From positions 1,916,589 to 1,980,588 of the forward strand of contig NZ_VKKY01000001.1 in the NCBI RefSeq assembly GCF_008271695.1: DNA of 64,000 nt. The letters are read 5' to 3'. This stretch comes from Rufibacter hautae (lineage in GTDB: Bacteria; Bacteroidota; Bacteroidia; Cytophagales; Hymenobacteraceae). The translations under genes and the position numbers were made by a program. The notes under the pieces were generated by a model. The model was not told where the DNA came from. It was given only the letters and a program-made list of their open reading frames with translations, and ran no database searches. Below, in pieces: positions 250-62,483 of the stretch; the stretch's first letter is position 1, and each line of letters opens with the position of its first letter.

Positions 250-289
250 CCGTTCTGGGCCGCATTTTCCAAAAATAAACCAAAATCAC
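250..289. repeat. degenerate copy of the ~40-bp palindromic repeat
   Basis: CCGTTCTGGGCC, then ATTTTCCAAAAAT as centre, then ACCAAAATCACG. It keeps the spacing of the family but the arms pair poorly. It lies between the divergent radA and the lipoprotein gene at 362. Confidence 0.4.
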
Positions 290-361
290 GCGCATCCCTT
301 TCTTCTGTTCAGCCATTTGGGCGCGGTTTTCGTTCATAGATTTCTAGCTAAGTACAAGACC

Positions 362-817
362 ATGAAGAAGATAAAAACCCTTACGTTGTATTTGTTCTTT
401 CTGCTGTGTGCCGGCTTCTCTCTAACCGGTTGCCAGACCACGGCGCCAACAGGCACCGAAAACCAAGCCAGCACGGCCAATGCCGAGGAAGACACCACCC
501 CAGCCGGACCCCGGTTCTCGCCGCAGCGCGTAGACGTGCGGGGCACCATCACCCAGCGGGAATATAACCAGGGCCAGATGCTCATCTTGGTGGAAGGTTT
601 CCCCGATAGATTCTCCCGTTTTGGGCGAGCAGTGGTGCTGGTGACGCCTATTACCCAGATTGTGGGCCTGGACGGGAAATCCATCAGCCTGAGCGAATTA
701 CAGAACGGGCAGCAGGTGGCGGTGCAGTTTAGAGGCAGGTTCCGGGAGTCGGTGACCGGTTTCGCGGCCCAGGCGGTGGCCCGCAAAATGTGGATTGAGC
801 CGCTGGGTGGCTACTAG
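362..817 (+). CDS. small lipoprotein of unknown function
   Basis: A 151-residue protein with a lipoprotein signal peptide: charged start MKKIK, a hydrophobic stretch, and lipobox LTGC with the lipidated cysteine at residue 24. A Thr/Ala/Glu-rich linker follows, then a compact domain from about residue 60 with alternating strands (VDVRGTITQREYNQGQMLIL and on to the end). The in-frame start at 317 would add 15 residues that spoil the signal, so ATG 362 is chosen. It is divergent from radA and stands alone. I do not recognise the C-terminal domain; its small beta-rich look suggests an OB-like or barrel fold, which is a guess. Confidence 0.75.
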   Translation: MKKIKTLTLYLFFLLCAGFSLTGCQTTAPTGTENQASTANAEEDTTPAGPRFSPQRVDVRGTITQREYNQGQMLILVEGFPDRFSRFGRAVVLVTPITQIVGLDGKSISLSELQNGQQVAVQFRGRFRESVTGFAAQAVARKMWIEPLGGY

Positions 818-1016
818 CACTGCTTCAGCTTAAACACGTGGCTTTGGCTTTGATGAGACGAACGCGCAGCTTCTGGTGGTGATGTAAGCCGAGCCCGGAA
901 ACTGGAGCAGGCGGGAACCAGGCTTGGCCGGAAAGTTGTAGTGGAAGCCTATGCCCTGATTATGAGGCGATTTTTGTAAATTGCACGCAAATCAGGTTTG
1001 GCTTCTGTTTACCTAT

Positions 1017-2090
1017 ATGTCTGGGACTTTTCTTCGTTCTGCGCTGGCTTTTTGCGGGCTGCTTTTTACTTTCTCCTTCACCCTATCGGCGCAAGCCGGC
1101 AAACCCATCAAGATCGCGGATCTGGAATTGCAGGTAGCGGGCACCGGGCAACCGGCCACGCAGCTGCAGTATGCCTTCCAAGCCGGGGATGTGCTGGTGC
1201 TGGACCTGGAGAACAAGGCCAAAACGATCTACAAGGTGACGGTGCAGGAGTATTTCTCTTCCTCGCCGCTGTACAGCACCGAGGAAACTAAGAAACTGAA
1301 CAACCTGCGCCTCACGGTGCCGCAGAAATCGGTGTACACCATTACGCTGCAGAGTTTGTCGCAGACCAGCACCAAAAGCCATTTCACGCTTACCCGCATT
1401 CCTAAAATCGAGGCCACGCAGAATTTCAACACGCTGGTGGCTTGGCGCACGGTCAAAGACACCGTTTGGACCACCGCTACCGAGAAAGTACTGGTGAAGA
1501 ACGACCTCAAATCTGAGACAATAGTAGACAAAACCTTCCGCCTGGCGTCACTCACCAACATCACCAGCAACAACCGCAGCACCGAGCGCTTCAAGCTGCC
1601 GGCCGGTACCAAACACTGGGTGTACTGGGTGGGCGTAGGACAAGAATCGGTGGAGGCGCTACAGGAAACGGGCAAGACGCTGGCCAAAGGCGCCACGGCC
1701 CTGCTCACAGGCAGCAATCCGTTGGTGGCGTTCGGGTTAGGGCTGTTGCCGCAGCTGCCGCAGGTGAAATCCAGCGGATACATCAGCTACCACCTGTTCA
1801 ACAAGAACAACGCTTACCTTTTCAAGGAAGACGAAGACGGCTGGAAACCCTACAGTGTGGCCAGCGGCAAGGACGTGCTTTCTGATTACGGCAAGGTGCT
1901 GATCAACCAGACCCCCAAGACCGATGATAGCTACCTGTACCTGGGTTTTGAGAACCCCAGCACCATCACCGGCCTGGACCTTACGTTGAAAGTGGTGGCG
2001 TTCATAGACAATCCTGTGTACCAGACCCGCACCGTGCGCAAACCGGCCAAGATCACCACCCGCCGCGAGCCTATCTTGGCCGCAGACTAA
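1017..2090 (+). CDS. exported protein of unknown function
   Basis: A 357-residue protein with a clear Sec signal peptide (hydrophobic residues about 8-24, ending LSAQAG). The ATG at 1017 is preferred over the upstream TTG at 981, which would put a polar tail before the signal. The mature part looks beta-rich, with many Thr/Lys/Val alternations, and has a small hydrophobic Gly/Leu-rich segment near residues 225-245 (GLGLLPQLPQ). No catalytic motif or known domain was recognised. It probably acts in the periplasm or at the outer membrane. Palindromic repeat 2093-2132 starts two bases after its stop. Confidence 0.7.
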   Translation: MSGTFLRSALAFCGLLFTFSFTLSAQAGKPIKIADLELQVAGTGQPATQLQYAFQAGDVLVLDLENKAKTIYKVTVQEYFSSSPLYSTEETKKLNNLRLTVPQKSVYTITLQSLSQTSTKSHFTLTRIPKIEATQNFNTLVAWRTVKDTVWTTATEKVLVKNDLKSETIVDKTFRLASLTNITSNNRSTERFKLPAGTKHWVYWVGVGQESVEALQETGKTLAKGATALLTGSNPLVAFGLGLLPQLPQVKSSGYISYHLFNKNNAYLFKEDEDGWKPYSVASGKDVLSDYGKVLINQTPKTDDSYLYLGFENPSTITGLDLTLKVVAFIDNPVYQTRTVRKPAKITTRREPILAAD

Positions 2091-2092
2091 AT

Positions 2093-2132
2093 CTGCTTTC
2101 GCGCGCCTTTTTGGGAAACAGGCCAAAAACAG
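2093..2132. repeat. palindromic repeat copy after the exported protein gene
   Basis: Left arm CTGCTTTcgcGCGCC, centre TTTTTGGGAAACA, right arm GGCCAAAAACAG. It starts two bases after the stop at 2090 and ends just before the rsmF -7 box. Confidence 0.6.
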
Positions 2133-3609: not shown

Positions 3610-3651
3610 TTCGTTTTCGGCTTTATTTCTGAAAGTGAGGCAGAAAACGAA
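3610..3651. repeat. palindromic repeat copy after the RsmF-like gene
   Basis: Outer arms TTCGTTTTCGGC and GCAGAAAACGAA pair around a TTATTTCTGAAAGTGA centre. It begins 7 bases after the stop codon. Confidence 0.6.
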
Positions 3652-3687
3652 GAGCCAATCCAACTAAGACATTGCTTTTTAAGCGCA

Positions 3688-3843: not shown

Positions 3844-3874
3844 CTTAATTTACATCTCTGGTGTTTAAAGGTGA

Positions 3875-5660: not shown

Positions 5661-6671
5661 GTGCCTTCACCTATTCACCATTTGGAAGATTCCCGCCTGC
5701 CCATCATTGACCTGCACTGCGACCTCACCGGCTACCTGGCCTGGATTCCCGGCGCCACGCCCATGGACGTGGACCGGATTGGCTGCGCGATCCCACATCT
5801 GCAGGCCGGTAAGGTAAAGCTGCAAACCATGGCTTTTTTCACGCCCACCGAGCCCGGCAGCGCCGATTTCACCTTAAAACAGGCCCTGCTTTTCCGGGAG
5901 GACCTGCTGAGAAGGGAAGATGTTTTTGCCCTGGTTTCCCCAAAAGAACTCCAAAACCAGGTGCTGCACGGGAAGCGCATAGCCATGGTGGCGGCCATTG
6001 AGAACGCCTCGGGGCTCTGCGAGGAAGAAGAACCATTGAAACTTGCTTTTTCAAGGCTGGAAAAAATCACAGAACTGGCGGGGCCGATGCTCTACATCAG
6101 CCTGACCCACGTGGACGAGAACCGGTTCAGCGGTGGCAATCTCACGCCTGGCATCGGGCTGAAGCCGGATGGCGAGCAACTGCTCCGTTACCTCAGCGGC
6201 CGGCGCATTGCCGTGGACCTGGCCCACACCTCAGACGCAGCCGCCTTTGACATCCTCTCCTTCATTGACCGGCAGAACCTGGATATCCCCGTGATGGCCA
6301 GCCATTCCAATTTCAGAGCAGTGTGCGACCATCCTCGGAACCTGCCGCAGGAATTGGTAGCGGAGATAGTGCGGCGGCAAGGGCTCATCGGGCTGAATTT
6401 CCTGAGGAGTTTTGTGCACCCAGACCGGCCCGAAGGGCTGCTGGAGCACATTCGCTACGGTTTCCGGCACGCGCCGCAAGCCCTGGCCTTCGGGGCCGAC
6501 TTCTTCCAGGAGTCCGGCGGGACAGGTGAATCCTATTACCATGAAGAACACCGGACGGCAGCCCGGTACCAGAACATCCTGGCGGAGTTAAGGCAGGAGT
6601 TTTCCCCCGATCAACTAGGGGACCTCAGCTACCGGAACGTGCTCAGGTTTCTGGGAAGGCTGTGGGGCTAA
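5661..6671 (+). CDS. peptidase M19 (renal dipeptidase-type) dipeptidase
   Basis: A 336-residue metallo-dipeptidase of family M19, which hydrolyses dipeptides with a binuclear zinc site in an amidohydrolase-like barrel. Visible signatures: IDLHCDLTGYL near the N-terminus (the HxD pair), AVDLAHTSDAA around residue 190, MASHSNFRAVCDHPRNL near 215, and ALAFGADFF near 275. There is no signal peptide, so it is probably cytoplasmic. The start is GTG at 5661, placed directly ahead of the conserved IIDLHCD block. It is divergent from the RlmI-like gene and single. Length fits the shorter bacterial M19 enzymes. Confidence 0.83.
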   Translation: MPSPIHHLEDSRLPIIDLHCDLTGYLAWIPGATPMDVDRIGCAIPHLQAGKVKLQTMAFFTPTEPGSADFTLKQALLFREDLLRREDVFALVSPKELQNQVLHGKRIAMVAAIENASGLCEEEEPLKLAFSRLEKITELAGPMLYISLTHVDENRFSGGNLTPGIGLKPDGEQLLRYLSGRRIAVDLAHTSDAAAFDILSFIDRQNLDIPVMASHSNFRAVCDHPRNLPQELVAEIVRRQGLIGLNFLRSFVHPDRPEGLLEHIRYGFRHAPQALAFGADFFQESGGTGESYYHEEHRTAARYQNILAELRQEFSPDQLGDLSYRNVLRFLGRLWG

Positions 6672-6690: not shown

Positions 6691-6730
6691 CGTTTCAAAG
6701 CTGTTTTACAGAAAAGAGCCGGTAAACAGG
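6691..6730. repeat. palindromic repeat copy after the dipeptidase gene
   Basis: CGTTTCAAAGCTGTTTT, ACAG loop, then AAAAGAGCCGGTAAACAGG. It lies 20 bases after the stop and has a good core but weak outer pairing. Confidence 0.55.
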
Positions 6731-6871: not shown

Positions 6872-9574
6872 ATGCCCCCAAGATTAAGACTCATCCCCTG
6901 TCTGCTGCTTTTTGTTTTAGCCACACTTTTTGCGTTTGGGCCCAAAAACGCATCCTTCACCACCAGTTTTGAAGAAATCATTGCCCGGTTCCAGCGCTTT
7001 ACGAAAGAATATCCGCAGGAGAAAGTGTACCTGCACCTGGACAAACCATACTATGCCGCCGGCGAGGATGCCTGGTTCAAAGCCTATCTGGTGAACGCCA
7101 AGGAGCATACGCCCAGCCAGCTCAGCAAGGTGCTGTATGTGGAGCTGCTCAACCCCGAGGACTCTGTTTACAGCCGGGTGGCGGTGGAGGTGCAGAACGG
7201 ACTGGGCCATGGTGATTTCGCCCTGCCCGATACCATTCCGGCCGGACAGTACCGGCTGCGGGCGTACACCAGCTGGATGCAGAACTTTGACGAGGAGTAT
7301 TTTTTCCACCAAAACCTGACCATCTACAACCCCAGAATGGAAGACGTGGTGCCTTCCGTGGTTTTTGAGGTGAAGCCACAGAGCAAAGGAGACTCCGTGC
7401 GGGTAAGCCTTTCTTTGAAAAACCACCAGGGAGAGCCGCTGGCCAACACGCCGTTCACGTACCTTACCCAAACGGGCCGCAAGACATCGGCTAAGCAAAA
7501 AGGGGTGACCAACGCCCAAGGATTGTCTCGGTTCGCGCTGCTCCTATCTGAGAAGGAGGACCGGCAGAACACCAAACTGCAGCTAACGGTCACCGAAGGC
7601 CAGAACGCGTACGTGAAAAGCTTTCCTATCCCGTTGCCCAACCTCAAACCAGATCTGCAGTTCTTCCCTGAGGGCGGAAACCTGGTGGCGGGCATGTGGA
7701 ACGTGGTGGGCTTCAAAGCCGTGGATGCCACGGGTCTGGGCGCAGACGTATCCGGCGCCATCTACGACCAGACCGGCAAGAAAGTCACCGATTTCAAGAG
7801 CCTGAAGTTTGGGATGGGCCGCATCAGGTTCATGCCTTTCAAGGGAATGACGTATGAGGCCCGCCTATCTTTGCCCAACGGGAGTTCCGCGGTGTATCCC
7901 TTGCCTGCCGCCAAAGAACAGGGCGTGCTGATGACCGTGGACAACAGCAGCCCTGAACTTATCAGATTGAAAGTCTACCTGCTGGGCTACGCCGATGGGG
8001 TGAACCGGCCCAAGGCTCTCCATTTCCTGGGCCAGAGCCGGGGCGAGATGTATTTCAGGGGAACGGGTACTACGGGCAAAGACTTGGTAGTGGTGGAGGT
8101 GCCCAGAAAGAGCTTCCCCGATGGGGTTTCCCAGATCACCCTGTTCTCAGGCACCGGCGAACCCCTGGCCGAGCGTTTGGTCTTCGTGAACCAGGGCCGG
8201 CAACTGCGTTTAAGCCTCACTTCTGATAAAACAGCCTATAAACCCCGCGAGAAAGTAACCATGCGCCTGCAGGCCAAAGATGAGGCGGGCAACCCTGTGG
8301 CGGGCACCTTCTCCGTAGCCGTCACGGACCAGCAGAAGATTACGCCTGATGTGAACGGCAATAACATCCTCACCAACCTGCTGCTCACCTCAGACCTGCG
8401 CGGGCACATAGAAGCGCCGGGGTACTATTTCTCCGGGCAAGACCCTGAGGCCGCCCTGGCGCTGGACAACCTCATGCTCACCCAAGGCTGGCGCCGGTTT
8501 GTGTGGCAAGACCTGCTGCAGAGCAAGCCTCCCCAGCTTACCCACCCCATAGAACAGGCGCTCACGGTCAGGGGAACCGTCTTGAAAACATCGGGGAAGC
8601 CGGAGCCCAATGCCGTGGTGAACCTCTTTGAGCTTAGCAACATCGCCGGCACACTCACCGACACCACAGACGCGCAGGGCAAGTTCATGTTTGGGGTGGC
8701 CGGCCTGGATGACAGCGCCCGCATTGTGGTGAAGGCCCTCTCGGCCAAAGGCAAGAACGCGTTGGAAGTGGTGCTGGAGAAAGGGTTGCCGCTCACGCTG
8801 GCGAAACCCAGGGCTCCGCTGCCCCCGCCTCCCGGCCCATTCTCCCAGGAACTGGCCAGGTACCTGCAAGGCAACCGCGAGCAACTCAAGCTAGACCAGC
8901 TATCCGGTAAAAGCATTCTCCTGAACACGGTGAACATCAAAGGCCGGGTACAGAAAGAAGAAGACGATTATGCCAGCCGAGGGCTTTACAGCAGGCCAGA
9001 CAGAACCCTCAAAGCGGCAGACCTGCCACCGGGCATGAACCTGATCGCCAGTCTGCAGGGCCGCATTGCCGGGTTGTATGTGTCAGGAGACAACATTTCC
9101 ATGCGCGGGGGCGGACCACCGCTTTTCCTGCTGGACGGCATGCCCATGGAAATGGAATTCTTCAGAACCATGTCTATGAGTGACGTGGACCGGATTGATG
9201 TGCTCATGCCCGGGGCGTCCTCCGCTGTTTACGGGTCCCAGGGAGGCAATGGCGTGATTGCCGTTTCGCTCAAGCGCGGGAGCGCCGCCACACCCGAGAT
9301 CTCCCGCTGGAGAGGCATTTCGTCCTACAAAGGAATTCGGTACCAGACCGCTCGGGAATTTTATATGCCCCGCTACGATGCGCCCGCCGAAACCAAGCTG
9401 CCTGACCTGCGGAGCACTATTTTCTGGTCGCCCACCATCACCACCAATGCCTCGGGTACCGCGGAGTGGACCTTTTTCGCCGCCGATGCCCTTACCACGT
9501 ACCAGGCGGTAGTGGAGGGAATCACGGGCCGCGGGCAGGTAGGGCGCGGGCTGGCAACCGTGCAGGTGAGGTAA
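6872..9574 (+). CDS. exported MG2 (alpha-2-macroglobulin-like) protein with TonB-receptor plug domain
   Basis: A 900-residue exported protein. It has a signal peptide at 1-24, then a macroglobulin MG2-type module (EKVYLHLDKPYYAAGEDAWF at about 50-70; YRLRAYTSWMQNFDEEYF near 130). Further beta-sandwich repeats follow to about 570, then a carboxypeptidase-regulatory-like domain (TVRGTVLKTSGKPEPNAVVN near 570) and a TonB-receptor plug module at about 725-810 (LFLLDGMPM, then ASSAVYGSQGGNGVIAV). A final Ig-like strand set ends the chain. No beta-barrel follows the plug. Similar proteins in Bacteroidota are annotated as TonB-dependent receptor plug proteins; their role is not established. It stands alone, and the plug without a barrel suggests interaction with a TonB complex or another outer-membrane protein. 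Confidence 0.8.
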   Translation: MPPRLRLIPCLLLFVLATLFAFGPKNASFTTSFEEIIARFQRFTKEYPQEKVYLHLDKPYYAAGEDAWFKAYLVNAKEHTPSQLSKVLYVELLNPEDSVYSRVAVEVQNGLGHGDFALPDTIPAGQYRLRAYTSWMQNFDEEYFFHQNLTIYNPRMEDVVPSVVFEVKPQSKGDSVRVSLSLKNHQGEPLANTPFTYLTQTGRKTSAKQKGVTNAQGLSRFALLLSEKEDRQNTKLQLTVTEGQNAYVKSFPIPLPNLKPDLQFFPEGGNLVAGMWNVVGFKAVDATGLGADVSGAIYDQTGKKVTDFKSLKFGMGRIRFMPFKGMTYEARLSLPNGSSAVYPLPAAKEQGVLMTVDNSSPELIRLKVYLLGYADGVNRPKALHFLGQSRGEMYFRGTGTTGKDLVVVEVPRKSFPDGVSQITLFSGTGEPLAERLVFVNQGRQLRLSLTSDKTAYKPREKVTMRLQAKDEAGNPVAGTFSVAVTDQQKITPDVNGNNILTNLLLTSDLRGHIEAPGYYFSGQDPEAALALDNLMLTQGWRRFVWQDLLQSKPPQLTHPIEQALTVRGTVLKTSGKPEPNAVVNLFELSNIAGTLTDTTDAQGKFMFGVAGLDDSARIVVKALSAKGKNALEVVLEKGLPLTLAKPRAPLPPPPGPFSQELARYLQGNREQLKLDQLSGKSILLNTVNIKGRVQKEEDDYASRGLYSRPDRTLKAADLPPGMNLIASLQGRIAGLYVSGDNISMRGGGPPLFLLDGMPMEMEFFRTMSMSDVDRIDVLMPGASSAVYGSQGGNGVIAVSLKRGSAATPEISRWRGISSYKGIRYQTAREFYMPRYDAPAETKLPDLRSTIFWSPTITTNASGTAEWTFFAADALTTYQAVVEGITGRGQVGRGLATVQVR

Positions 9575-9598: not shown

Positions 9599-9639
9599 TG
9601 TTTTACGGCCCTTTTTCCTGAAACAAGCCTGAAACGCAC
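9599..9639. repeat. palindromic repeat copy between the MG2 protein gene and prfA
   Basis: TGTTTTACGGCC, centre CTTTTTCCTGAAACA, right arm AGCCTGAAACGCA. It begins 25 bases after the stop and lies 26 bases ahead of the prfA -7 box. Confidence 0.6.
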
Positions 9640-10771: not shown

Positions 10772-10788
10772 GCCAACCCATACCAGAA

Positions 10789-10928: not shown

Positions 10929-12314
10929 ATGCCGCTTCCCTCCTTTCTTTCTGCTTCCTGGCGACTTTGGCTGCAAAGCCTGGCCCTGGTTTGCGTAGTG
11001 GGCTGGTGGATGAGCGCGTGCACGCCCCGCGACGAGGAAATCACCGCCGATGCCGGGGCCTTGCTCAGATTGGAGGCCGATACAGTGCTGTTTGATACTG
11101 TTTTCACCGAGGTGGGTAGCGTCACCAGGCGCCTGAAAGTCTACAACCCCAACAAGAACGCCGTCCGGATCTCGGAGATAAAAGTGGGTGGGCTCGCCGG
11201 CTCGCCGTTCCAGGTGTTTGTGAACGGAAGGCCGGGACCGCAACTGCAGGACGTGGAGCTCCGGGGCGAAGACAGTCTGCTGGTGCTGGTCAAAGCCACC
11301 ATCAACCCCAACGTGCAGGAGCAGCCTTTCCTGGTGAACGACTCTATCCTGTTTCTCACCAACGGAAACCAGCAGAAAGTGAAATTGGTGGCTTATGGGC
11401 AGAACGCCACGTATTACCGCCAAAACTACCTCACGGTTCCCGCCGAGGTCTGGACTTCCGCCAAAGCGCACATCATCTATGATTCTGTCACGGTACCGGC
11501 GGGGCAAACCCTCACCATCCAGAAAGGCAGCCAGGTCCATCTGCATCGTAAGGCCAAGATAAAAGTGCTGGGGACGTTGAAAGTGGAAGGCGAGCACGAG
11601 AAGCGGGTGGTGTTTCAGCAGGTGCGCCTGGAGGAGCAGTACCGCAACGCGCCCGGCCAATGGCAGGGGTTGGAGTTCTTGGCGGCCAGCCAGGGCAATG
11701 ACCTGCGCTTCGTAGAGATCAAAAATGCGGTGAACGGCGTGTACCTGAAAGCCGAAGCCAACAAAGTGCCCCAGGTGACGCTTAGGAACGCTTTTCTCAA
11801 AAACATGCTGCAAAACGGGGTGCAAAGCATTGGCGGCCATGTGCGGCTGGAAAACAGCATCATCGCTAACTGCGCCGAATACGCCTTTATGGGTTTGGGA
11901 GGGCGCTATGAAATTATCTTCAGTACGGTGGCCAATTATGCCAATGACTTTGTCCGGTTTATGCCTTCCATTTCGTTTGACGGGGAATACGTGTTGAGCG
12001 TGGTCAACAGCATTTTGTGGGGCCGGCAGGAAGAGGAACTGCAGTTTGGCGCCTTGACGGGGACTGCCAGCAGAACCATCCGGAACTCCTTTTTGAAGAC
12101 AAAAGCCTACCAGACCGAGTTTGGAAAAGACGGAAACCAACTCAACGTAGACCCGCAGTTCCGCGATGCGCCCAAGTTGGATTTCCAGATCATCAAGCTG
12201 TCACCGGCCAACGCCGCCGGTACGCCGGTGCCCGGTATCACCACGGACTACGAGAACAAACCGCGTGACCCTCAGAAACCCGATGCCGGGGCGCTGGAAG
12301 TAGACTACCAATAA
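10929..12314 (+). CDS. lipoprotein with Ig-like and right-handed beta-helix domains
   Basis: A 461-residue lipoprotein. The signal ends in a WWMSAC lipobox with Cys at about residue 31. Residues about 45-150 form an Ig/DUF1573-like domain (LFDTVFTEVGSVTRRLKVYN). From about 175 the sequence turns to repeated short strands typical of a parallel beta-helix (PAGQTLTIQKGSQVHLHRKA, then many Asn-ladder-like turns). The C-terminus NPRDPQ-KPDAGALEVDY is the usual ending of Bacteroidota choice-of-anchor/beta-helix proteins. It is probably attached to the outer membrane; ligand unknown. The yjbQ gene follows after 15 bases on the same strand, so the two may share a transcript. Confidence 0.75.
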   Translation: MPLPSFLSASWRLWLQSLALVCVVGWWMSACTPRDEEITADAGALLRLEADTVLFDTVFTEVGSVTRRLKVYNPNKNAVRISEIKVGGLAGSPFQVFVNGRPGPQLQDVELRGEDSLLVLVKATINPNVQEQPFLVNDSILFLTNGNQQKVKLVAYGQNATYYRQNYLTVPAEVWTSAKAHIIYDSVTVPAGQTLTIQKGSQVHLHRKAKIKVLGTLKVEGEHEKRVVFQQVRLEEQYRNAPGQWQGLEFLAASQGNDLRFVEIKNAVNGVYLKAEANKVPQVTLRNAFLKNMLQNGVQSIGGHVRLENSIIANCAEYAFMGLGGRYEIIFSTVANYANDFVRFMPSISFDGEYVLSVVNSILWGRQEEELQFGALTGTASRTIRNSFLKTKAYQTEFGKDGNQLNVDPQFRDAPKLDFQIIKLSPANAAGTPVPGITTDYENKPRDPQKPDAGALEVDYQ

Positions 12315-12752: not shown

Positions 12753-12753
12753 A

Positions 12754-12790
12754 GTTTGAAGGCTGTTTTTGGGAAAACCCGTCTAAAACG
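12754..12790. repeat. palindromic repeat copy after yjbQ
   Basis: GTTTGAAGGCTGTTTTT, GGG loop, then AAAACCCGTCTAAAAC. It starts right after the stop codon and lies between two convergent genes. Confidence 0.6.
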
Positions 12791-16151: not shown

Positions 16152-16190
16152 GGTTTTGGGCTTGTTTTACGCAAAACAGATGAAAAACGG
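16152..16190. repeat. palindromic repeat copy overlapping a terminator
   Basis: GGTTTTGGGCTTGTTTT, ACGC loop, AAAACAGATGAAAAACGG. Its right end is the first arm of the stem-loop at 16185-16228. Confidence 0.6.
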
Positions 16191-17852: not shown

Positions 17853-17921
17853 GGCCAGTGAACTAAACAGCCTTTGGCATAGTTTTGGCATTGGATAAGG
17901 AAAACCTGCTTAAAACGAGAC

Positions 17922-20342: not shown

Positions 20343-20392
20343 GAAGCCCGTTTTTGGCATGTTTTCCCCAAAACAGACCAAGAACGGGCTTC
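20343..20392. repeat. long-armed palindromic repeat copy
   Basis: GAAGCCCGTTTTTGG pairs with CCAAGAACGGGCTTC around TGTTTTCCCCAAAACA. The conserved core is extended by eight outer base pairs, making it a strong hairpin. Confidence 0.75.
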
Positions 20393-22306: not shown

Positions 22307-22362
22307 CCGCTCCTCCGTTTCCAGCCTGGTTTCCATAAAACTGGCTTGAAACGGAGGAGCGG
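22307..22362. repeat. long-armed palindromic repeat copy / terminator after the ZIP gene
   Basis: CCGCTCCTCCGTTTCCAGCC pairs with GGCTTGAAACGGAGGAGCGG around TGGTTTCCATAAAACT. The TTTTCTTTT following it makes it a plausible terminator for the methyltransferase-ZIP operon. Confidence 0.75.
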
Positions 22363-26243: not shown

Positions 26244-26280
26244 ACAAAAAGGCCACTGCGTAAAGCGGTGGCCTTTTTGT
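26244..26280 (+). terminator. intrinsic terminator of the TlpA gene
   Basis: ACAAAAAGGCCACTGC pairs with GCGGTGGCCTTTTTGT; strong G/C stem with T-run at the 3' end. Confidence 0.8.
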
Positions 26281-26371
26281 GTTAATTTGTGGAAATCAGC
26301 CTCAAAACGCATCCTTTCTATGCGCCAGCCTATTATTAAGAATTTGGGTTGAGCCTTAAACGAAACCAGCT

Positions 26372-28492: not shown

Positions 28493-28532
28493 CTGTTTCA
28501 AGGCTGTTTTACCCAAAAGAGCCTTAAAACAG
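28493..28532. repeat. palindromic repeat copy upstream of dgt, overlapping a long hairpin
   Basis: CTGTTTCAAGGCTGTTTT, ACCC loop, AAAAGAGCCTTAAAACAG. The last eight bases also form the first arm of the 22-bp inverted repeat at 28525-28576. Confidence 0.75.
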
Positions 28533-31306: not shown

Positions 31307-31347
31307 CCGTTTTAAGGCTATTTTTTCTGAAACAGCTCAAAAGCGGG
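31307..31347. repeat. palindromic repeat copy at the 3' end of the YciI-like gene
   Basis: CCGTTTTAAGGCTATTTTTT, CTG loop, AAACAGCTCAAAAGCGGG. It ends three bases from the YciI stop on the minus strand. Confidence 0.6.
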
Positions 31348-35459: not shown

Positions 35460-35499
35460 CTGTATTGGGACCATTTTCGCGAAAACAGCCCCAATACAG
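35460..35499. repeat. palindromic repeat copy after the LytTR gene
   Basis: CTGTATTGGG pairs with CCCCAATACAG around ACCATTTTCGCGAAAACAG. The centre TTTTCGCGAAAA is itself a perfect palindrome. Confidence 0.7.
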
Positions 35500-36269: not shown

Positions 36270-36310
36270 CCGTTTCTGGCCTGTTTTCAGGAAAACAAGC
36301 CAGAAATAGG
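36270..36310. repeat. palindromic repeat copy, near-consensus
   Basis: CCGTTTCTGGCCTGTTTT, CAGG loop, AAAACAAGCCAGAAATAGG. One of the best matches to the family consensus; it lies between two minus-strand genes. Confidence 0.75.
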
Positions 36311-36371: not shown

Positions 36372-38462
36372 TCACCGCTTGACAGATGGATTATTGGAAA
36401 GCACCTCTCTTTTCTCCATGTGTTTTAAAATCTCCTGCTTCTCCAGCAAAGCCGGCCGAAGCTTCTTCTCAGACAGGAGCTGGAGTTGGTCGCCACGGTG
36501 CTTGCTGCCGGGTTGGGTGGCGTTGCCGTAACTGAGCAAAACCTGGGCTTTCACCTTGTCCCCGAACTCCGTGATGGCCACGTACGAATCTCCGTGGAAG
36601 GCGTATTCTTTGTTGTCCTCACCGCTGTAGTAGTACATGGTCCGGAAGACGCCGTAGTGACTGTGCGCACCGTTGCCGGGCACGTTGTAATCACCTACCC
36701 TGAAGCGGTACACATCACCCCAGGCTACGTCCAGGGAGCCGTACTTTTTCTCTACTTCGTCTGCGGTGGTTACCAGGAGCGCTACTGCTTTCTGCGGGTC
36801 TTTGAGACCGTCTGGCGTGGTGAACGGCTGATCAGGGTTCCAGGGCGTAGTGAACATGTCCTCGCGCATCTTGTCAAACCAGCGGGCGAACAGGATGGCG
36901 CCTTTGCTGTTGGTCTCGGTCTTCTTGTCCCATTTCTGCAGCACGGCGGCGGCTCTTTGGGCTATGGGGTCAGGGTGTTTTTGCACTGCTTTGAGCAAAT
37001 CATCCAGAAAACGGTCCGCCGATTCCATGCCGGTGTTCATCTTGTAGGCCACCAGTTCGTCAAAAGAGATAGAGGCATCGTCTTTGATCATGTTCACGGC
37101 GCGTTGCGGGCGCAAAGGTGTTTCCTGCGGCGCCATGTAGGGCGGGAAATCAGCGGGTTTGAGGGCTACGGGGTAGGTGCTGGTCCAGGGGGCGTCATTG
37201 GCGTTCTGCACAAAGCCGGTGCTGGGATTGAAGACTTTGGGCAGGTCTTCGTAGCGATGGTAGGAGTTCCAGATGTACTTGGAGGAGCGTCCGTCTACGG
37301 TGCCGTTCCAGAACGCCCAGTCACCCTCAGGGCGTTTGGGCACGTTGCCGTTGAACAGGTACAGGATGTTGCCGGTTTTATCGGCGTAGATGATGTTGAA
37401 CAGCGGGTTCTGCAGCATTTTGACCGCTGATTCAAACTGCTGCCAGTTCTTGGCCTGCGCCATCTTGTGGTACTGCGTGCCCAACAAAGCGTTCTCCAGC
37501 CCAGCAATGCGTACGGCGTAGGCTTTGCCGTTCTTCTCTCCCACCACGGGGCCGTGCTTAGAGGCGGCGATGACCAGGTTCTCCGTTTTCACAGAGCCAT
37601 CGGCTTGCCGAATCTTCAGCGGCACGGTTCTTTTCTCGAAGGCTTGTACTTTGCCATCCAGCAGGTAGCCGCCGTTCTGCAGTGTGAGTTCGTAGCGGTC
37701 CGAGGCATCAATGGTGTTCACGGTGTGCGTCCAACCCAAGTAGTCATTAAAAGCGATGTTCAGGATAGGCTGCCCTATCAGCGACACGCCATAAGCGTTG
37801 AACCCCGGTGCCGATAAATGCGCCTCAAAAAACACGAAGAAATCGTCCCAGGGCAGGTGCGGATTGGTCACCAGCATCGCTTTCTTAGACGCCGACCGGG
37901 AAGGCGCAATGGCGTAGGCGTTGGAACCGGGCGTGATCTCGCGCACGGCTGCCCGTATGTCATCGCTGCCCAGGAACTCCAGGCAGACCACGCGGGAACT
38001 GTGGGCCAGCACATCAGCAGGCGTAATGGGCAGCACTTGCTTTCTGGCCGGGTCAATCGCCTCTGGATGGGCCTGGGCATAGGCGTTCACTCCGCGCACG
38101 AAGGCATCTAAGTGCTGCTTGCCCTCGGGTGGTTGCTGGGCATACTGCTTTTTGGCCGTTTCGGGCAGGCTAAAGAGATGCACCTGCTTGTCGCCGTTAA
38201 GGTATTTCTCGCCCCAGTATTCTGCGGCTCGGCCCCGCGCCTGTCCGTAGAGTTCCAGCAATAGGTTGGCGTGGTTGTGCATCTGCGCCCACCCGAAGGC
38301 GTAGTACATCTCACTGGTGTTCTGGCCGTACACGTGCGGTACGCCGTAGTTATCCCAGATGATTTCAGTAGGCGCCTTTTGGGCCTGTACGTTGCTTAAA
38401 GTGGCGCAGAAAAAGAACGCCAGCCACACCGCCGCTTTGAAAGTTGTGCTTACCTGTTTCAT
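36372..38462 (-). CDS. penicillin acylase family (Ntn hydrolase) enzyme
   Basis: A 696-residue exported Ntn hydrolase of the S45 family (penicillin G acylase, AHL acylase). The signal peptide ends about residue 27 (SNVQAQ). The nucleophile is Ser180 in TPGSNAYAIAPS, to be freed by self-cleavage between a small and a large subunit. The context MLVTNPHLPWDDFFVFFEAH and LGWTHTVNTIDASDRYEL is typical of the group. The substrate may be N-acyl-homoserine lactones or other amides, which cannot be separated from sequence. The ATG at 38462 is chosen; an ATG at 38531 adds 23 residues before the signal. Confidence 0.88.
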   Translation of the reverse strand: MKQVSTTFKAAVWLAFFFCATLSNVQAQKAPTEIIWDNYGVPHVYGQNTSEMYYAFGWAQMHNHANLLLELYGQARGRAAEYWGEKYLNGDKQVHLFSLPETAKKQYAQQPPEGKQHLDAFVRGVNAYAQAHPEAIDPARKQVLPITPADVLAHSSRVVCLEFLGSDDIRAAVREITPGSNAYAIAPSRSASKKAMLVTNPHLPWDDFFVFFEAHLSAPGFNAYGVSLIGQPILNIAFNDYLGWTHTVNTIDASDRYELTLQNGGYLLDGKVQAFEKRTVPLKIRQADGSVKTENLVIAASKHGPVVGEKNGKAYAVRIAGLENALLGTQYHKMAQAKNWQQFESAVKMLQNPLFNIIYADKTGNILYLFNGNVPKRPEGDWAFWNGTVDGRSSKYIWNSYHRYEDLPKVFNPSTGFVQNANDAPWTSTYPVALKPADFPPYMAPQETPLRPQRAVNMIKDDASISFDELVAYKMNTGMESADRFLDDLLKAVQKHPDPIAQRAAAVLQKWDKKTETNSKGAILFARWFDKMREDMFTTPWNPDQPFTTPDGLKDPQKAVALLVTTADEVEKKYGSLDVAWGDVYRFRVGDYNVPGNGAHSHYGVFRTMYYYSGEDNKEYAFHGDSYVAITEFGDKVKAQVLLSYGNATQPGSKHRGDQLQLLSEKKLRPALLEKQEILKHMEKREVLSNNPSVKR

Positions 38463-39332: not shown

Positions 39333-39371
39333 GCGTTTCGCAGGCGTTTTTGTAAAAACGGCCTTAAAGCA
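39333..39371. repeat. palindromic repeat copy after the GNAT gene
   Basis: GCGTTTCGCAGGCGTTTTT, GT loop, AAAAACGGCCTTAAAGC. It lies 41 bases after the stop. Confidence 0.55.
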
Positions 39372-39428: not shown

Positions 39429-39470
39429 AAAAACGCCCTGAAACCGAATAGTCGTTTTCAGGGCGTTTTT
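39429..39470. terminator. bidirectional terminator between convergent GNAT and DUF4286 genes
   Basis: AAAAACGCCCTGAAAC pairs with GTTTTCAGGGCGTTTTT. A- and T-runs on both sides allow function in both directions. Its right arm is also the left arm of the palindromic repeat at 39453-39492. Confidence 0.75.
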
Positions 39471-39492
39471 ATGCAAACAGGCCTAAACAAGG
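39453..39492. repeat. palindromic repeat copy overlapping the terminator
   Basis: CGTTTTCAGGGCGTTTTT, ATGC loop, AAACAGGCCTAAACAAGG. The left arm is shared with 39429-39470. Confidence 0.55.
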
Positions 39493-40748: not shown

Positions 40749-40790
40749 TCTGTTTAGGGCCTGTTTTTCTCAAAACAGGCCCTAAATTTT
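40749..40790. repeat. perfect palindromic repeat copy / bidirectional terminator
   Basis: TTTAGGGCCTGTTTT pairs perfectly with AAAACAGGCCCTAAA over a TCTC loop. It fills the gap between the convergent MORN/TonB and MFS genes, a few bases from each stop, so it very likely ends both transcripts. Confidence 0.8.
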
Positions 40791-43190: not shown

Positions 43191-43228
43191 GCGTTTACGG
43201 CACGTTTTTAGAAAATAGGCTTAAAAAG
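43191..43228. repeat. palindromic repeat copy between two terminators
   Basis: GCGTTTACGGCACGTTTTT, AG loop, AAAATAGGCTTAAAAAG. Its right end overlaps the hairpin at 43227. Confidence 0.5.
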
Positions 43229-46274: not shown

Positions 46275-46336
46275 CTCAGTAAGAAAAAAAATGGGAAAAG
46301 GAGGAGCGTCCTCCAAACCGCCTTCAAGCGCAGGGT

Positions 46337-46374
46337 ATTTCTGGCCTGTTTTTACAAAAATCAGCTGAAAACAG
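46337..46374. repeat. palindromic repeat copy between the His-rich and receptor genes
   Basis: ATTTCTGGCCTGTTTTT, AC loop, AAAAATCAGCTGAAAACAG. It sits in the 135-base gap between the two minus-strand genes. Confidence 0.55.
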
Positions 46375-46768: not shown

Positions 46769-46858
46769 GGTCCTAAAAATAATATTTCTGCAGCAAACGT
46801 CAGACAAGCAGAAAGAACGGCAGCTTTCAGCTATTGAAACGAGGAGGTGCGAGCTTAT

Positions 46859-46897
46859 GTTTTTAGGCTGTTTCTCAGAAACTGGGCCATAAATGGG
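46859..46897. repeat. palindromic repeat copy upstream of htpG (first)
   Basis: GTTTTTAGGCTGTTTCTC, AG loop, AAACTGGGCCATAAATGGG. Confidence 0.5.
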
Positions 46898-46947: not shown

Positions 46948-46987
46948 CTGTTTTCAAGCGGTTTATCAGAAAACGGGCGGTAAACGG
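46948..46987. repeat. palindromic repeat copy upstream of htpG (second)
   Basis: CTGTTTTCAAGCGGTTTAT, CAG loop, AAAACGGGCGGTAAACGG. It lies 50 bases after the previous copy, forming a pair. Confidence 0.5.
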
Positions 46988-48997: not shown

Positions 48998-49036
48998 CTG
49001 TTTTAAAGCAATTTTTACCAAAAGAGCCCGGAAACG
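48998..49036. repeat. palindromic repeat copy after htpG, nested with a terminator
   Basis: CTGTTTTAAAGCAATTTTT, ACC loop, AAAAGAGCCCGGAAACG. Its right arm pairs better with the next 20 bases (terminator 49020-49055), giving two exclusive hairpins. Confidence 0.6.
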
Positions 49037-49055: not shown

Positions 49056-49087
49056 GATTTTAGGCGTTTTCTGAAATAAAAGCCATC

Positions 49088-50186: not shown

Positions 50187-50227
50187 ACGGTTTTAAAGCA
50201 GTTTTTACCAAAAGAGGCCGGAAACGT
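50187..50227. repeat. palindromic repeat copy, nested with a terminator
   Basis: ACGGTTTTAAAGCAGTTTTT, ACC loop, AAAAGAGGCCGGAAACGT. It is almost the same design as the copy after htpG; the right arm is shared with 50210-50245. Confidence 0.6.
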
Positions 50228-52349: not shown

Positions 52350-52387
52350 CATTTCAAGGCTGATTTCTGAAAAACGCCTTCAAAACG
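52350..52387. repeat. palindromic repeat copy upstream of the DoxX gene
   Basis: CATTTCAAGGCTGATTTCT, GA loop, AAAACGCCTTCAAAACG. Confidence 0.5.
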
Positions 52388-52493: not shown

Positions 52494-52531
52494 GCGTTTC
52501 TGAGCCCATTTTTACAAAAAAGGCCGGAATC
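52494..52531. repeat. palindromic repeat copy, nested with a terminator
   Basis: GCGTTTCTGAGCCCATTTTT, ACA loop, AAAAAGGCCGGAATCGC. The GGCC part of the right arm is also used by hairpin 52519-52543. Confidence 0.55.
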
Positions 52532-52543
52532 GCTCCGGCCTTT
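52519..52543 (-). terminator. terminator of the DODA-type dioxygenase gene
   Basis: AAAGGCCGGA pairs with TCCGGCCTTT, 5-base loop. It lies 29 bases beyond the dioxygenase stop on the minus strand. Confidence 0.7.
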
Positions 52544-53579: not shown

Positions 53580-54170
53580 TTAAGAAATGGCTTGTTGGTA
53601 GAGGTCCAGGCCTTCAGACTTGATGGAACTGAAGAACTCCGGCGTGATGCCAAGGTAGGAGGCGATGTGGTACTGCGGAATGCGCTGGCTGAGGGTGGGA
53701 AACTTGAGCAGGAAATCGCGGTAGTTCTCAGCGGCGGTCTGGGTCATGCCGCTCAGCATCCGTTTCTTGAACGCGAAGTAGCCGTTTTGGAGCAGTTTTC
53801 TATAAAACAGGTTGAAAACGGGATGCTGTTGGGTGAGTTCCTCAAAGGCCGAACTGTTGATCTGCACGTATCGCGTAGGCTCCAGCGCCTGAATGGACAG
53901 CAAGGCCGGTTTGTTAAACGCGATGTCACTGATCCAGTACCGCTCCACAGCAAACTCCAGGTTCACTTCCTTGCCTGCCTGGTCTATGATGAAAGAGCGC
54001 AGGCAGCCGCTCAGCACGAAGTAGATGTAATGGTTCTGCTCGCCGGTGCGCAGCAGAAATTCCTTTTTCTTCGCCTCGCGCAGCTCACAGATAGCCATGA
54101 ACGCCGCTTCCTGTTCAGGGGAAACAGAGACGTGTTGGGCAAGGGCGGCGGCGAGAAGGTCTTGGGACAA
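53580..54170 (-). CDS. Crp/Fnr family transcriptional regulator
   Basis: A 196-residue regulator. The N-terminal cyclic-nucleotide-binding-like domain (HYIYFVLSGCLRSFIIDQAG and FVLSG to LSIQALEPTRYVQIN) leads to a helix (FNLFYRKLLQNGYFAFKKRM) and a C-terminal HTH (YHIASYLGITPEFFSSIKSE). The key Arg/Ser of cAMP binding are not present, as usual for Bacteroidota Crp-like proteins. The start TTG at 54170 is the only one that gives a full N-terminus, but a -7-like TATCTTTT overlaps it, so the true start may differ by some residues. It sits 129 bases upstream of the dioxygenase, which may be its target. Confidence 0.8.
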   Translation of the reverse strand: MSQDLLAAALAQHVSVSPEQEAAFMAICELREAKKKEFLLRTGEQNHYIYFVLSGCLRSFIIDQAGKEVNLEFAVERYWISDIAFNKPALLSIQALEPTRYVQINSSAFEELTQQHPVFNLFYRKLLQNGYFAFKKRMLSGMTQTAAENYRDFLLKFPTLSQRIPQYHIASYLGITPEFFSSIKSEGLDLYQQAIS

Positions 54171-57420: not shown

Positions 57421-57740
57421 ACTGCGTTATTGAAGGCTTTTCATCACAAGCTACGGAATTCTTGTGGTTTTCCTGCACACCGGCCCGGCAGGAAAACACC
57501 GGAAAAGAATAGAGGAATGAAAATATAAATAGCGTTTTCTGAATATTTATACCGATCCTGCTTATCTTTAGAGGTCTGTAGCTCAGGCGCTTCGCATACG
57601 CACATTGGTCTCCCGTTTAGCGGGTGTTTTCAGGAAAACACGGCAAAAACGCACATTTCTGCCGCAGTTGCGTATAGAGGGTGCCAACGGCTATTAATAC
57701 GCAAGTAAATACCACCCATTCTGAATAAACCACCTCAACT
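57421..57740. other. 320-bp region between divergent nucleotidyltransferase and lemA genes
   Basis: This holds palindromic copy 57613-57651 and a -7-like TATCTTTA at 57563-57570. The string GGTCTGTAGCTCAGGCGC at 57573 looks like a tRNA start but no T-arm or anticodon arm follows. No protein-like frame was found. Confidence 0.5.
57613..57651. repeat. palindromic repeat copy upstream of lemA
   Basis: CCGTTTAGCGGGTGTTTT, CAGG loop, AAAACACGGCAAAAACG. Confidence 0.65.
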
Positions 57741-58410: not shown

Positions 58411-58452
58411 GCGTTTCAGGCTTGTTTTGCAGAAAGCAGGCCTGAAACGTGC
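58411..58452. repeat. palindromic repeat copy between lemA and the TPM genes
   Basis: GCGTTTCAGGCTTGTTTT, GCAG loop, AAAGCAGGCCTGAAACGTGC. Outer arms GTTTCAGGC / GCCTGAAAC pair without mismatch. Confidence 0.75.
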
Positions 58453-59798: not shown

Positions 59799-59841
59799 AC
59801 GGAATCGGGGCTGTTTTCTCAAAAACAGCCCCGATTCCGTT
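59799..59841. repeat. perfect long-armed palindromic copy / terminator after the TPM gene
   Basis: The left arm AACGGAATCGGGGCTGTTTT pairs over 20 bases with AAAACAGCCCCGATTCCGTT. It is followed by TTTCTG. One of the strongest members of the family. Confidence 0.8.
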
Positions 59842-60716: not shown

Positions 60717-61783
60717 TCCGCGTTACGGTTGATGCAGTTCAGGTCTTGGAAGGCTTCTTTCAGGCGGGCCACAAAGGTCTCTTCACCGGCGCGTAACCAT
60801 ACGCGTGGGTCGTAGTACTTTTTGTTCGGGCTGTCTTCGCCGGTTGGGTTGCCAATTTGGGCTTGCAGGTAGTCTCTTTTGCCTTCGTAGTAGTTTTTGA
60901 TGCCGTCCCAGAAGGCCCACTGCATGTCGGTGTCAATGTTCATCTTGATGGCGCCGTACTCAATGGCCTCGGTGATTTTCTCTTTCTCAGAGCCGGATCC
61001 GCCGTGGAATACAAATTGCACTGGGTTATCGCCGGTGCCGTATTTCTGCTGGATGAAGTCCTGGGAGTTTTTCAGGATCTCAGGACGAAGCTCCACGTTG
61101 CCTGGCTTGTACACGCCGTGCACGTTCCCGAAAGCAGCAGCCACGGTGAAGCGGTTGCTGATCTTGCCTAGTTCTTCGTAAGCATAGGCTACGTGCTCTG
61201 GCTGGGTGTACAAGTGCGCGCTGTCAATGTCTGAGTTGTCAACGCCGTCTTCCTCACCGCCAGTCACGCCTAATTCAATCTCAATGGTCATGCCCATTTT
61301 AGACATCCGCTCCAGGTATTTGGCAGAGATCTCAATGTTTTCTTCCAGGGGCTCCTCAGAAAGGTCCAGCATGTGGGAACTGAACAGAGGCTTGCCGTGC
61401 TGGACGTAGAATTTCTCACCGGCATCTAACAGACCATCAATCCAGGGAAGTAATTTTTTAGCCGCGTGGTCAGTGTGGAGAACGACGGTGACACCGTAAG
61501 CCTCGGCTAGTTGGTGTACGTGGTGGGCGCCGGAGATAGCACCGGCGATAGAGGCGGCCTGTCCTTCGTTGCTCAGGCTTTTGCCGGCATAGAATTGGGC
61601 ACCGCCTTGGGAGAACTGAATGATAACGGGAGAATTCACCGCTTTGGCCGTTTCCAACACCGCGTTGATGGAGTTGGTACCAATTACGTTTACAGCGGGA
61701 AGTGCAAAGTTATTGTCGTTGGCGTACTTGAATAAGTCCTGCACCTCGTCTCCGTACAGAACCCCAGATCTAAATTTAGGCAT
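60713..61783 (-). CDS. fbaA: class II fructose-bisphosphate aldolase
   Basis: A 356-residue zinc-dependent aldolase joining glyceraldehyde-3-phosphate and dihydroxyacetone phosphate. Zn ligands are in VVLHTDHAAKKLLPWIDG and in later His residues (VAYAYEELGKISNRFTVAAA; FVFHGGSGS). The long-form insert ELGVTGGEEDGVDNSDIDS of the E. coli-type class II enzyme is present. The ATG at 61783 is preceded by a -7 box. It lies next to the repeat-rich desert. Confidence 0.94.
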   Translation of the reverse strand: MPKFRSGVLYGDEVQDLFKYANDNNFALPAVNVIGTNSINAVLETAKAVNSPVIIQFSQGGAQFYAGKSLSNEGQAASIAGAISGAHHVHQLAEAYGVTVVLHTDHAAKKLLPWIDGLLDAGEKFYVQHGKPLFSSHMLDLSEEPLEENIEISAKYLERMSKMGMTIEIELGVTGGEEDGVDNSDIDSAHLYTQPEHVAYAYEELGKISNRFTVAAAFGNVHGVYKPGNVELRPEILKNSQDFIQQKYGTGDNPVQFVFHGGSGSEKEKITEAIEYGAIKMNIDTDMQWAFWDGIKNYYEGKRDYLQAQIGNPTGEDSPNKKYYDPRVWLRAGEETFVARLKEAFQDLNCINRNAE

Positions 61784-61808
61784 GGATTTGCTAGTTTTGG
61801 TCTACTAG

Positions 61809-61816
61809 CAAAACTA
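61809..61816 (-). promoter_or_regulatory. -7 box of the aldolase gene
   Basis: On the minus strand TAGTTTTG, an exact TAnnTTTG match, 25 bases before the ATG at 61783. Confidence 0.5.
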
Positions 61817-61835
61817 AGTAATAAATCCGTTAGTT

Positions 61836-62117
61836 CTAAAGATTCTTGTTCCGGGTTAGTTTCTGGTACTCGCGCTCCACGGCGTAATCATGGGAGCCAT
61901 GGTAGGCGTCATAGTAGTTGAAGGCCAGGCCAACGCCCCAGCCAAGGCTCAGCCAGGCGGGCCAGGGCAGGCCCATGTAATTGAAATCTTCGCCTTTGTT
62001 GAGGTACCAGACACTCCACACCAGCAGGTTAATCACCGCATAGGTGAACAGATGCCGCCTGAAAGCCACGCGCTTTTTGGCCAGTTTCCATAAGAACTTA
62101 TCTTTTTCTCCTTCCAT
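61836..62117 (-). CDS. 2TM domain membrane protein
   Basis: A 93-residue 2TM-domain protein. After KDKFLWKLAKKRVAFRRHLF come two membrane helices (TYAVINLLVWSVWYL; PAWLSLGWGVGLAFNYYDAY), then a short tail with HDYAVEREYQKLT. The domain is common in Bacteroidota, sometimes fused to LytTR or kinases, with unclear function. ATG 62117 gives the expected start; an upstream start at 62168 adds a hydrophobic AT-rich leader without support. Confidence 0.8.
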   Translation of the reverse strand: MEGEKDKFLWKLAKKRVAFRRHLFTYAVINLLVWSVWYLNKGEDFNYMGLPWPAWLSLGWGVGLAFNYYDAYHGSHDYAVEREYQKLTRNKNL

Positions 62118-62441
62118 CTGCTTTCCTATAAGATGATTATATAGTAAAACATAAATATAAAGAATCAAGCCTGAGGTTGGGTGCTTTTCAGGCTAAAGTT
62201 TGTACAACTCCTGCTTTAGAGCCGGTTGGAGAGCCAATATCCTTTTGCGTTATCTATACTGTTTACGAGAATCAGGCGTAAAACGGATTTTTTACCAGTG
62301 AAAGGGAGAACGTTGGATTACAGACGTGTTGTCAGCGTTCTTCAAAATTGCTTGTCGTGTGCCCTAAGCCACTTAGAGAAAACTGATGATAATCAAGAGA
62401 AGCAGCGACGGAGAATCAGAAAGAAGAATCTCTCTGGAACT

Positions 62442-62483
62442 CTGCTTTAGGCCTGTTTTCCTGAATATGGGCTAAAAATACAG
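62442..62483. repeat. palindromic repeat copy upstream of polA
   Basis: CTGCTTTAGGCCTGTTTTC, CTGAAT centre, ATGGGCTAAAAATACAG. Confidence 0.55.

Follow-up and report, generated by a model that had tools for sequence, protein, structure and literature searches.

The 64,000-nucleotide (nt) stretch of the Rufibacter hautae genome analysed here (the window) carries, scattered mostly between its genes, an imperfect palindrome of about 40 bp, i.e. two arms that flank a short loop. A two-arm scan (28 scored positions, loop of 2-7 nt, a copy being defined by a score of at least 20/28) recovered 36 copies, where 30 Markov shuffles gave 0.2 on average. At the stricter cutoff of at least 21/28 there were 24 copies against 0 in the shuffles, and a one-arm pattern with at most 2 mismatches matched 28 times for a shuffled mean of 0.72. 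The original prediction of a dispersed palindrome of this size with some 30 copies is confirmed by this excess over shuffled sequence, and all 15 start positions that it had named recur among the 36. The loop measures 4 nt in 28 copies and 3 nt in 8. As had also been claimed, placement is mostly intergenic: 30 of the 36 copies lie between, and 6 within, the genes called by a hexamer-based open reading frame (ORF) caller that was made for this analysis and is uncurated. The remark that many copies lie within 25 bases of a stop codon holds for 10 of the 30 intergenic copies (at most 25 nt), which is not a majority. The window contains no match to the Y1 transposase domain (Y1_Tnp, PF01797), in agreement with the claim that it lacks a RAYT/transposase, and an Rfam scan of the window gave 0 matches at the gathering score. 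The copies are listed in Table 1, together with the two Y1_Tnp genes found elsewhere in the genome.

Table 1. Palindrome copies in the window, and Y1_Tnp genes elsewhere in the genome (stretches L004 and L005). Scores are those of the two-arm scan, out of 28; gene context follows our own ORF calls.
Position	Feature	Score	Gene context	Remark
251..288	palindrome copy	20	intergenic	
2095..2131	palindrome copy	21	stop 4 nt before	TAnnTTTG 7 nt past its end
3612..3649	palindrome copy	22	stop 8 nt before	
5921..5958	palindrome copy	21	within called gene	
6691..6728	palindrome copy	21	stop 19 nt before	
8207..8244	palindrome copy	20	within called gene	
9600..9636	palindrome copy	23	~60 nt upstream of gene at 9698	
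11779..11816	palindrome copy	20	within called gene	
12753..12790	palindrome copy	23	occupies whole 41-bp convergent gap	
16152..16189	palindrome copy	24		
17881..17917	palindrome copy	20	divergent gap	
20349..20386	class-1 copy	26	stop 19 nt before	6-pair outer stem
22316..22353	class-1 copy	24	stop 43 nt before	9-pair outer stem, then TTTTC
26272..26309	palindrome copy	20		
27216..27253	palindrome copy	21	within called gene	
28494..28531	palindrome copy	21		
31308..31345	palindrome copy	21	stop at 4 nt	
35461..35498	palindrome copy	20	convergent gap	
36271..36308	palindrome copy	26		
36976..37013	palindrome copy	21	within called gene	
39334..39370	palindrome copy	20	convergent gap	
39453..39490	palindrome copy	21		left arm doubles as right half of A-stem/T-tail hairpin
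40751..40788	palindrome copy	25	occupies whole 43-bp convergent gap	
43192..43228	palindrome copy	24		GC-rich inverted repeat directly after
46336..46373	palindrome copy	22		
46858..46895	palindrome copy	20	divergent gap	
46950..46986	palindrome copy	20	divergent gap	
49000..49036	palindrome copy	21		right arm doubles as left half of AAAAGAGCCC..GGGCTCTTTT hairpin
50190..50226	palindrome copy	22		arrangement of same kind as copy 49000
52350..52387	palindrome copy	20		
52495..52532	palindrome copy	21		
53783..53820	palindrome copy	23	within called gene	
57614..57651	palindrome copy	25	divergent gap	
58412..58449	palindrome copy	27		top score of window
59801..59838	terminator-like copy	20		17/17 arm pairs form, outer stem 3, right flank GTTTTCTGTTT
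62443..62480	palindrome copy	20	divergent gap	
L004 1252-1842	Y1_Tnp (PF01797) protein			196 aa
L005 1246-1794	Y1_Tnp (PF01797) protein			182 aa

A 464-kb sample of the same genome (G000), made up of the window and 20 further stretches, holds 194 copies, whereas five shuffles gave 0-3. Tandem gaps account for 85 of the 194 (47 + 38), convergent gaps for 44 and divergent gaps for 31; a further 23 fall in called genes and 11 at the edges of stretches. Copies are thus not equally frequent inside coding sequence, the called coding share of the sample being about 78%. Extrapolation to the 5.84 Mb of the genome gives an estimated 2,400 or so copies, and a model of the palindrome (R1) found at least 150 strand-matches in the genome, with 150 of 8,770 first-look candidates scored. 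The lowest density was seen in the two most AT-rich stretches of the sample (L101 and L102, GC 0.47 and 0.44, 2 copies per 20 kb each), which are perhaps acquired DNA.

Among the genomes searched, the family appears private to the genus Rufibacter, which belongs to the Hymenobacteraceae (order Cytophagales), the family in which the original prediction had proposed to search. A strict palindrome pattern matched in 16 of 16 genomes of the genus, at 2 to 452 places per genome (the pattern misses the spelling used in one of them, G048), but in none of 104 genomes from five other Hymenobacteraceae genera; model R1 likewise matched all 16 at E <= 1e-7, with up to 150 candidates scored in each. The skeleton GTTT-N7-GTTTT-N3/4-AAAAC-N7-AAAC occurs at 93 places in G000, whereas the 147 other genomes sampled from the order, among them no second genome of the genus, have none. 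The same restriction is seen around the gene at 9698-10771, which we take to be prfA and whose product shares 97% identity with the proteins of R. roseus and R. sediminis, the nearest named relatives being Rufibacter. In a set of 80 loci that surround relatives of the gene, each of five Rufibacter loci has 5-11 copies and the other 75 have two in total. Copy 9600..9636 has a counterpart in the same place in 4 of the 5 named Rufibacter loci. A wider spread of the A/T-tract skeleton was considered and rejected, since matches at 14 or more of 16 positions were not in excess over three shuffles in the examined Pontibacter, Adhaeribacter, Hymenobacter, Spirosoma-group and Sphingobacteriia loci, next to the absence from the 147 other genomes of the order. 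In the literature searched, part of which was available as partial text, no published description was recognised as these palindromes.

When copies are selected on their A/T tracts alone (110 skeleton matches), the consensus reads CYGTTTHRRGSCTGTTTT, loop, mirror image, with a loop of 4 nt in 81 matches, 3 nt in 22 and another length in 7. TT steps lie about 4 and 15 bp to either side of the dyad, i.e. with a spacing of 11 bp within each half. In the best-preserved copies the palindrome is extended by an outer stem whose sequence varies by locus. At least 6 outer pairs are formed in 18 of 30 copies scoring 26 or more in the G045 loci (0.3 expected) and in 14 of 30 copies in G012 (0.5 expected), but in only 11 of 193 copies scoring 20 or more in G000 (0.5 expected).

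The number of outer pairs was used to divide 564 copies, taken from G000, G012 and two syntenic blocks (A and B) and including orthologous and hence non-independent copies, into class 1 (at least four outer pairs; 123 copies), class 2 (none or one; 380 copies) and 61 copies in between with two or three pairs. The classes also differ in their core, of which 15.3 of 17 pairs are formed in class 1 versus 11.0 in class 2, and in median folding energy (-37.1, with 10-nt flanks, versus -12.5 kcal/mol). In the three sets, class-1 copies lie at median distances of 29.5, 36 and 29 nt from the nearest upstream stop (quartiles 24 to 54), and class-2 copies at 35, 43 and 81 nt, their quartiles spreading further (7 to 185). 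Divergent gaps hold 6 of the 122 intergenic class-1 copies versus 69 of the 336 intergenic class-2 copies.

The three sequence features looked for in an intrinsic (Rho-independent) terminator, i.e. a stable hairpin shortly after the stop codon, a T-rich tail and pairing kept through sequence change, were found in class 1. In G000, outer stems of at least 3 pairs are followed by 48-70% T over bases 1-9 (23 cases) versus 14-38% after shorter stems, and in G012 by 29-50% over bases 1-8 (38 cases) versus 10-39%, convergent copies entering these counts in both directions. Pairing in class 1 (110 copies) amounts to 15.47 versus 12.77 when arms are shuffled by column. Gaps of 40-600 bp hold a copy most often when convergent (29 of 43 in G000 and 25 of 30 in G012); in tandem gaps the counts are 62 of 172 and 70 of 148, and in divergent ones 20 of 50 and 13 of 34. 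Class 1 is therefore best read, on sequence grounds, as predicted intrinsic terminators that would often act in both directions. They resemble known ones in being stable hairpins some 30 nt past a stop with a T-enriched tail, often the single hairpin between convergent genes, and differ in their long stems with an A/T-rich apex that is shared throughout the genus. Ordinary A-stem-T hairpins are present in this genome and in other genera as well; in the window one such terminator-like hairpin (10785-10816) follows the gene ending at 10771, so conventional hairpins coexist with the palindromes. Mutual exclusion between the two kinds was considered as well and rejected as not significant. At 48995-49060 and 50185-50245 a three-arm layout is seen, in which the right arm of the palindrome can alternatively pair with a downstream arm to give a conventional terminator-like hairpin; such layouts could be a switch, or a terminator made from an old copy.

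The pairing of class 1 is retained between species. In syntenic blocks, where nucleotide identity is mostly 65-85%, the best gaps carry a copy in nearly every genome (A9 15/15, A6 14/14, B0 15/15, B3 15/15, A10 14/15). In 12-14 of 14 genomes A6 forms each of the outer pairs 2-7 from the core, three or four pair types being seen per pair; the eighth is formed in 9. In five class-1 sets (A9, A6, B3 last, C2 and A1), arms taken from the same genome form 15.5-16.2 of 17 core pairs and 4.8-7.4 of 8 outer pairs, versus 11.8-13.7 and 3.0-4.0 for arms combined across genomes; the orthologous sets used for cross-pairing were picked after inspection of the gaps. The drop is weaker for A10 (12.7 versus 11.3) and small for B3 first (12.1/10.6), and in divergent-gap sets pairing within and across genomes is nearly equal (B8 11.3/10.95, C10 11.5/11.0, A0 10.4/10.3). 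As to the direction in which outer stems form, the alignments are too diverged to show it.

The original prediction had left open whether the palindromes are dedicated terminators or a REP-like family (repetitive extragenic palindromes), and each of these fits part of the data while neither covers the whole family. If the palindromes were dedicated intrinsic terminators only, copies that lack an outer stem or T tail would be decayed terminators or lie in mis-called gaps. The terminator geometry of class 1 and the richness of convergent gaps argue for this account, but it misses the class-2 majority, since class 2 has neither outer stem nor T tail, shows hardly any pairing covariation and is present in divergent gaps. 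Owing to class 2, neither pairing and tail throughout nor absence from divergent gaps is found when all copies are considered. Moreover, some divergent-gap copies stand at similar distances in most genomes with their A/T tracts conserved and almost no pairing covariation: that of B8 lies 80-100 nt from the start codon in 11 of 15 genomes, where some are the second copy of their gap and one scores 18, and that of C10 lies 35-49 nt from it in 13 of 14. We regard this account, already weakened, as very improbable.

What is conserved in class 2 is the dyad rather than its pairing, apart from a slight leftover at two positions. Pairing barely exceeds that of column-shuffled arms, both in G000 (10.58 versus 10.49, 113 copies) and in G012 (12.66 versus 12.57, 90 copies). 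To assess constraint, copies were picked in one genome and the aligned base was read in a second one, in which no copy was required (five genome pairs, both directions, 98 comparisons). The A/T tracts (arm positions 2-5 and 14-17) were 85.7% identical, versus 61.6% for the middle, 68.5% for free positions, 57.1% for the loop and 62.4% for the flanks; in the same gaps outside the cores all positions were 68.2% and TTT/AAA runs 75.2% identical. Identity is highest at positions 3-5 and 15-16 (0.89-0.96). From sequence alone, class 2 is best read as a duplex site for a putative protein, or else as old copies that are kept by homogenisation.

TAnnTTTG is the -7 promoter word of the Bacteroidota. 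In G000, 34 copies lie upstream of it (0-199 nt) versus 5 on its gene side (up to 120 nt), whereas a control word gave 11 versus 8, the two ranges being unequal in length; part of this bias could simply reflect short 5' leaders. A promoter operator at fixed distance was rejected, in that an apparent peak at 14-20 nt had counted orthologous loci repeatedly and comes down to 3-5 cases per single genome.

Such observations could also suggest that all copies are duplex sites of a putative abundant, genus-specific nucleoid-type protein, whose preference the species spellings would follow, with terminators merely sharing the gaps. The symmetric architecture (A/T tracts spaced by one helical turn within each half, a loop of 3-4 nt in 103 of 110 matches), the conservation nearly without pairing, the position upstream of the promoter word and the lack of solitary arms all point this way. 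Class 1, however, requires pairing outside the site, the identical non-symmetric loops of G045 (see below) suggest copying instead of site-by-site selection, and the distance to the promoter word is not fixed within single genomes, so that we hold a pure binding-site network to be rather unlikely.

Copies within a genome resemble each other more than shuffled labels would give, even at shared positions of ancient origin. Among 145 copies, similarity between different loci is 0.730 within the same genome versus 0.690 between genomes, and 0.719 between orthologous copies; none of 200 permutations of the labels within loci reached the within-genome value. For class 1, the values at variable arm positions are 0.687 (same genome), 0.603 (orthologous) and 0.571 (other); class 2 shows a weak effect (0.526, 0.503 and 0.498; 0 of 100 permutations in both classes) that could be fed by species differences in base composition. 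Base composition cannot explain, however, that G045 carries one identical 36-mer, loop included, at 75 places (45 on one strand and 30 on the other), and it can hardly explain the species spellings: CGTTTAGGGGC in G045, an ending TTCATTT in G048, and CGTTTTTGGCC in G017 and G022.

These identical copies lie mostly where relatives carry copies of their own. Taking as counterpart a copy scoring at least 20 within 25 nt in a relative, 20 of the 23 G045 copies in the blocks that score at least 23 were comparable with two or more relatives; 18 of these have a counterpart in at least 2 relatives and one has none, and 139 of 193 comparisons with relatives were positive versus 42 of 850 for random gap positions. 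Exact copies of the 36-mer occur 10 times in the blocks, and 7 of the 8 comparable ones have a counterpart in at least 2 relatives (48 of 67 comparisons), on which ground insertion at new sites was rejected as the source of this burst. It may still apply to some copies, the lone one without counterpart not being an exact burst copy.

The burst bears on the possibility that the palindromes are plain mobile repeats, in which a RAYT/Y1 single-strand transposase copies the hairpin, class 2 being decayed debris and class 1 debris recruited by terminators. The 75 identical copies, the higher frequency of outer stems in intact copies, the slight residual covariation in class 2 and the occurrence of Y1_Tnp matches in 15 of the 16 genus genomes, including the two in the window's genome, would agree with this. 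The Y1 transposases are nevertheless poor candidates for spreading the palindromes, because 54 strict places occur in the one genome that lacks a match and because neither flank density nor the number of strict places follows them: counted over 500 bp to each side, copies average 1.0 for Y1_Tnp matches (30 of 45 examined) versus 0.92 for 333 control genes, and strict places do not correlate with transposase number (rho -0.08, with the pattern missing the G048 spelling). Ownership by a RAYT was rejected accordingly. Since the burst copies mostly have counterparts in relatives, the class-2 A/T tracts remain conserved and the tails of known REP superfamilies are not enriched (see below), mobile repeats of this plain kind seem distinctly unlikely.

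The explanation that we consider, with some reservation, probable is that of REP-like, genus-private and mainly intergenic dyad elements that exist in two states and are homogenised in place. In class 1 the palindrome makes up the top of a long hairpin with a gene-specific lower stem, which would work as an intrinsic, often bidirectional, terminator, and class 2 would be read as duplex DNA, most simply by a protein of the genus. Either gene conversion or template switching at palindromes would replace copies where they stand, and could also create and mend outer stems; a single spelling would be propagated by ectopic gene conversion. Hairpin stems can be generated and repaired by template switching at inverted repeats (PMC8794818).

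Several observations weigh against this explanation. The T tail is weak in G012, and neither exclusion nor co-occurrence of palindromes and other terminator-like hairpins in gaps is significant. The perfect pairing of the class-1 core could stem in part from the copying of a paired core instead of compensatory change at the locus; the outer stems alone escape this objection. Conservation of place is not general, as other block gaps have copies in few or no genomes (B5 7/15, B6 0/14), and called genes contain 44 of the 380 class-2 copies next to 1 class-1 copy. Remnants of covariation persist in class 2, at positions 4 (z 4.5) and 6 (z 3.2) in G000 and at 2 and 7 (z 2.6) in G012, these being the sole positions with z above 2.5. 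Covariation above shuffles is also seen in 22 window copies taken as a mixed set (0.282 versus 0.180, 0 of 500); both would be expected of decayed hairpins. In a mixed set of 146 G000 copies covariation is found at positions 4, 6 and 7 and, weaker, at 1 and 10. Finally, the class-2 constraint rests on pairwise alignments of diverged intergenic DNA with non-independent orthologous copies, and arm positions 2, 11, 17 and 14 (0.79, 0.78, 0.76 and 0.69 identity) misfit a simple four-tract site.

Short extragenic palindromes are usually seen as selfish repeats or as terminators. Here one word has a paired state that resembles a terminator and an unpaired one conserved as duplex, recurs at the same places in sister species, and has spellings that differ from species to species yet are almost uniform within some of them. 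With 16 genomes and their syntenic gaps, the co-evolution of dispersed short repeats and the creation and mending of hairpins become directly testable. A more far-reaching version, to which we assign a rather low probability, is a genus-private code that spans the chromosome: some 2,000 or more helically phased A/T-tract dyads would be bound by a putative Rufibacter-specific architectural protein, the word would double as terminator apex, and sites would be rewritten as the word of the species changes, such that protein and site network co-evolve. If a protein does read the bare sites, it would represent a new kind of bacterial chromosome organiser.

With respect to known systems, paired uptake sequences of Neisseria and Pasteurellaceae act as terminators, and they share with the Rufibacter word that an inverted pair yields a terminator hairpin. 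They differ in that solitary arms outside palindromes are absent from the 464 kb of G000, on which ground an uptake sequence was rejected. The sites of the chromosome-organising matS and Noc systems number in the tens; these are dyad-symmetric, dispersed and conserved as duplex like the present ones, which are far more numerous, mainly intergenic and confined to one genus. The likeness to REP/REPIN-RAYT families with a GTAG tail extends to short palindromes in high copy number (194 in 464 kb here), mainly extragenic and lineage-specific in spelling, with Y1 genes in the genome (in part after PMC3733652). The Rufibacter family, however, is fully dyad-symmetric, its copies are often at orthologous positions across the genus and homogenised in place, transposase flanks are at background, and GTAG lies within 12 nt of 18 of 256 copies on either strand, three comparison tetramers giving 6, 28 and 38. 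CGTC-tagged REPs, short palindromes with loops of 4-5 nt, have been reported also from Bacteroidetes, apparently without a dedicated transposase (Di Nocera et al. 2013, PMC3733652). They resemble the present family in form, comparable loops and the lack of an apparent dedicated transposase; CGTC was found at 10 of 256 copies, i.e. without enrichment, and the two are set apart on this tail, independently of the CGTC family consensus sequences. The family is thus REP-like but lacks those hallmarks of known REP superfamilies that were tested.

Two further repeats were noted. The convergent gap at 3677-3846 of the window contains a longer imperfect inverted repeat, found by eye (GACTCTCCCCTTGAGGGGAG and its mirror about 120 bp on), which is unlike the palindrome and may be a repeat of its own or a miniature element. 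At ~92-235 of stretch L139 lies another dispersed repeat, some 85-140 bp long; it matches several genus genomes, often on both strands at one place, and is therefore probably itself an inverted repeat.

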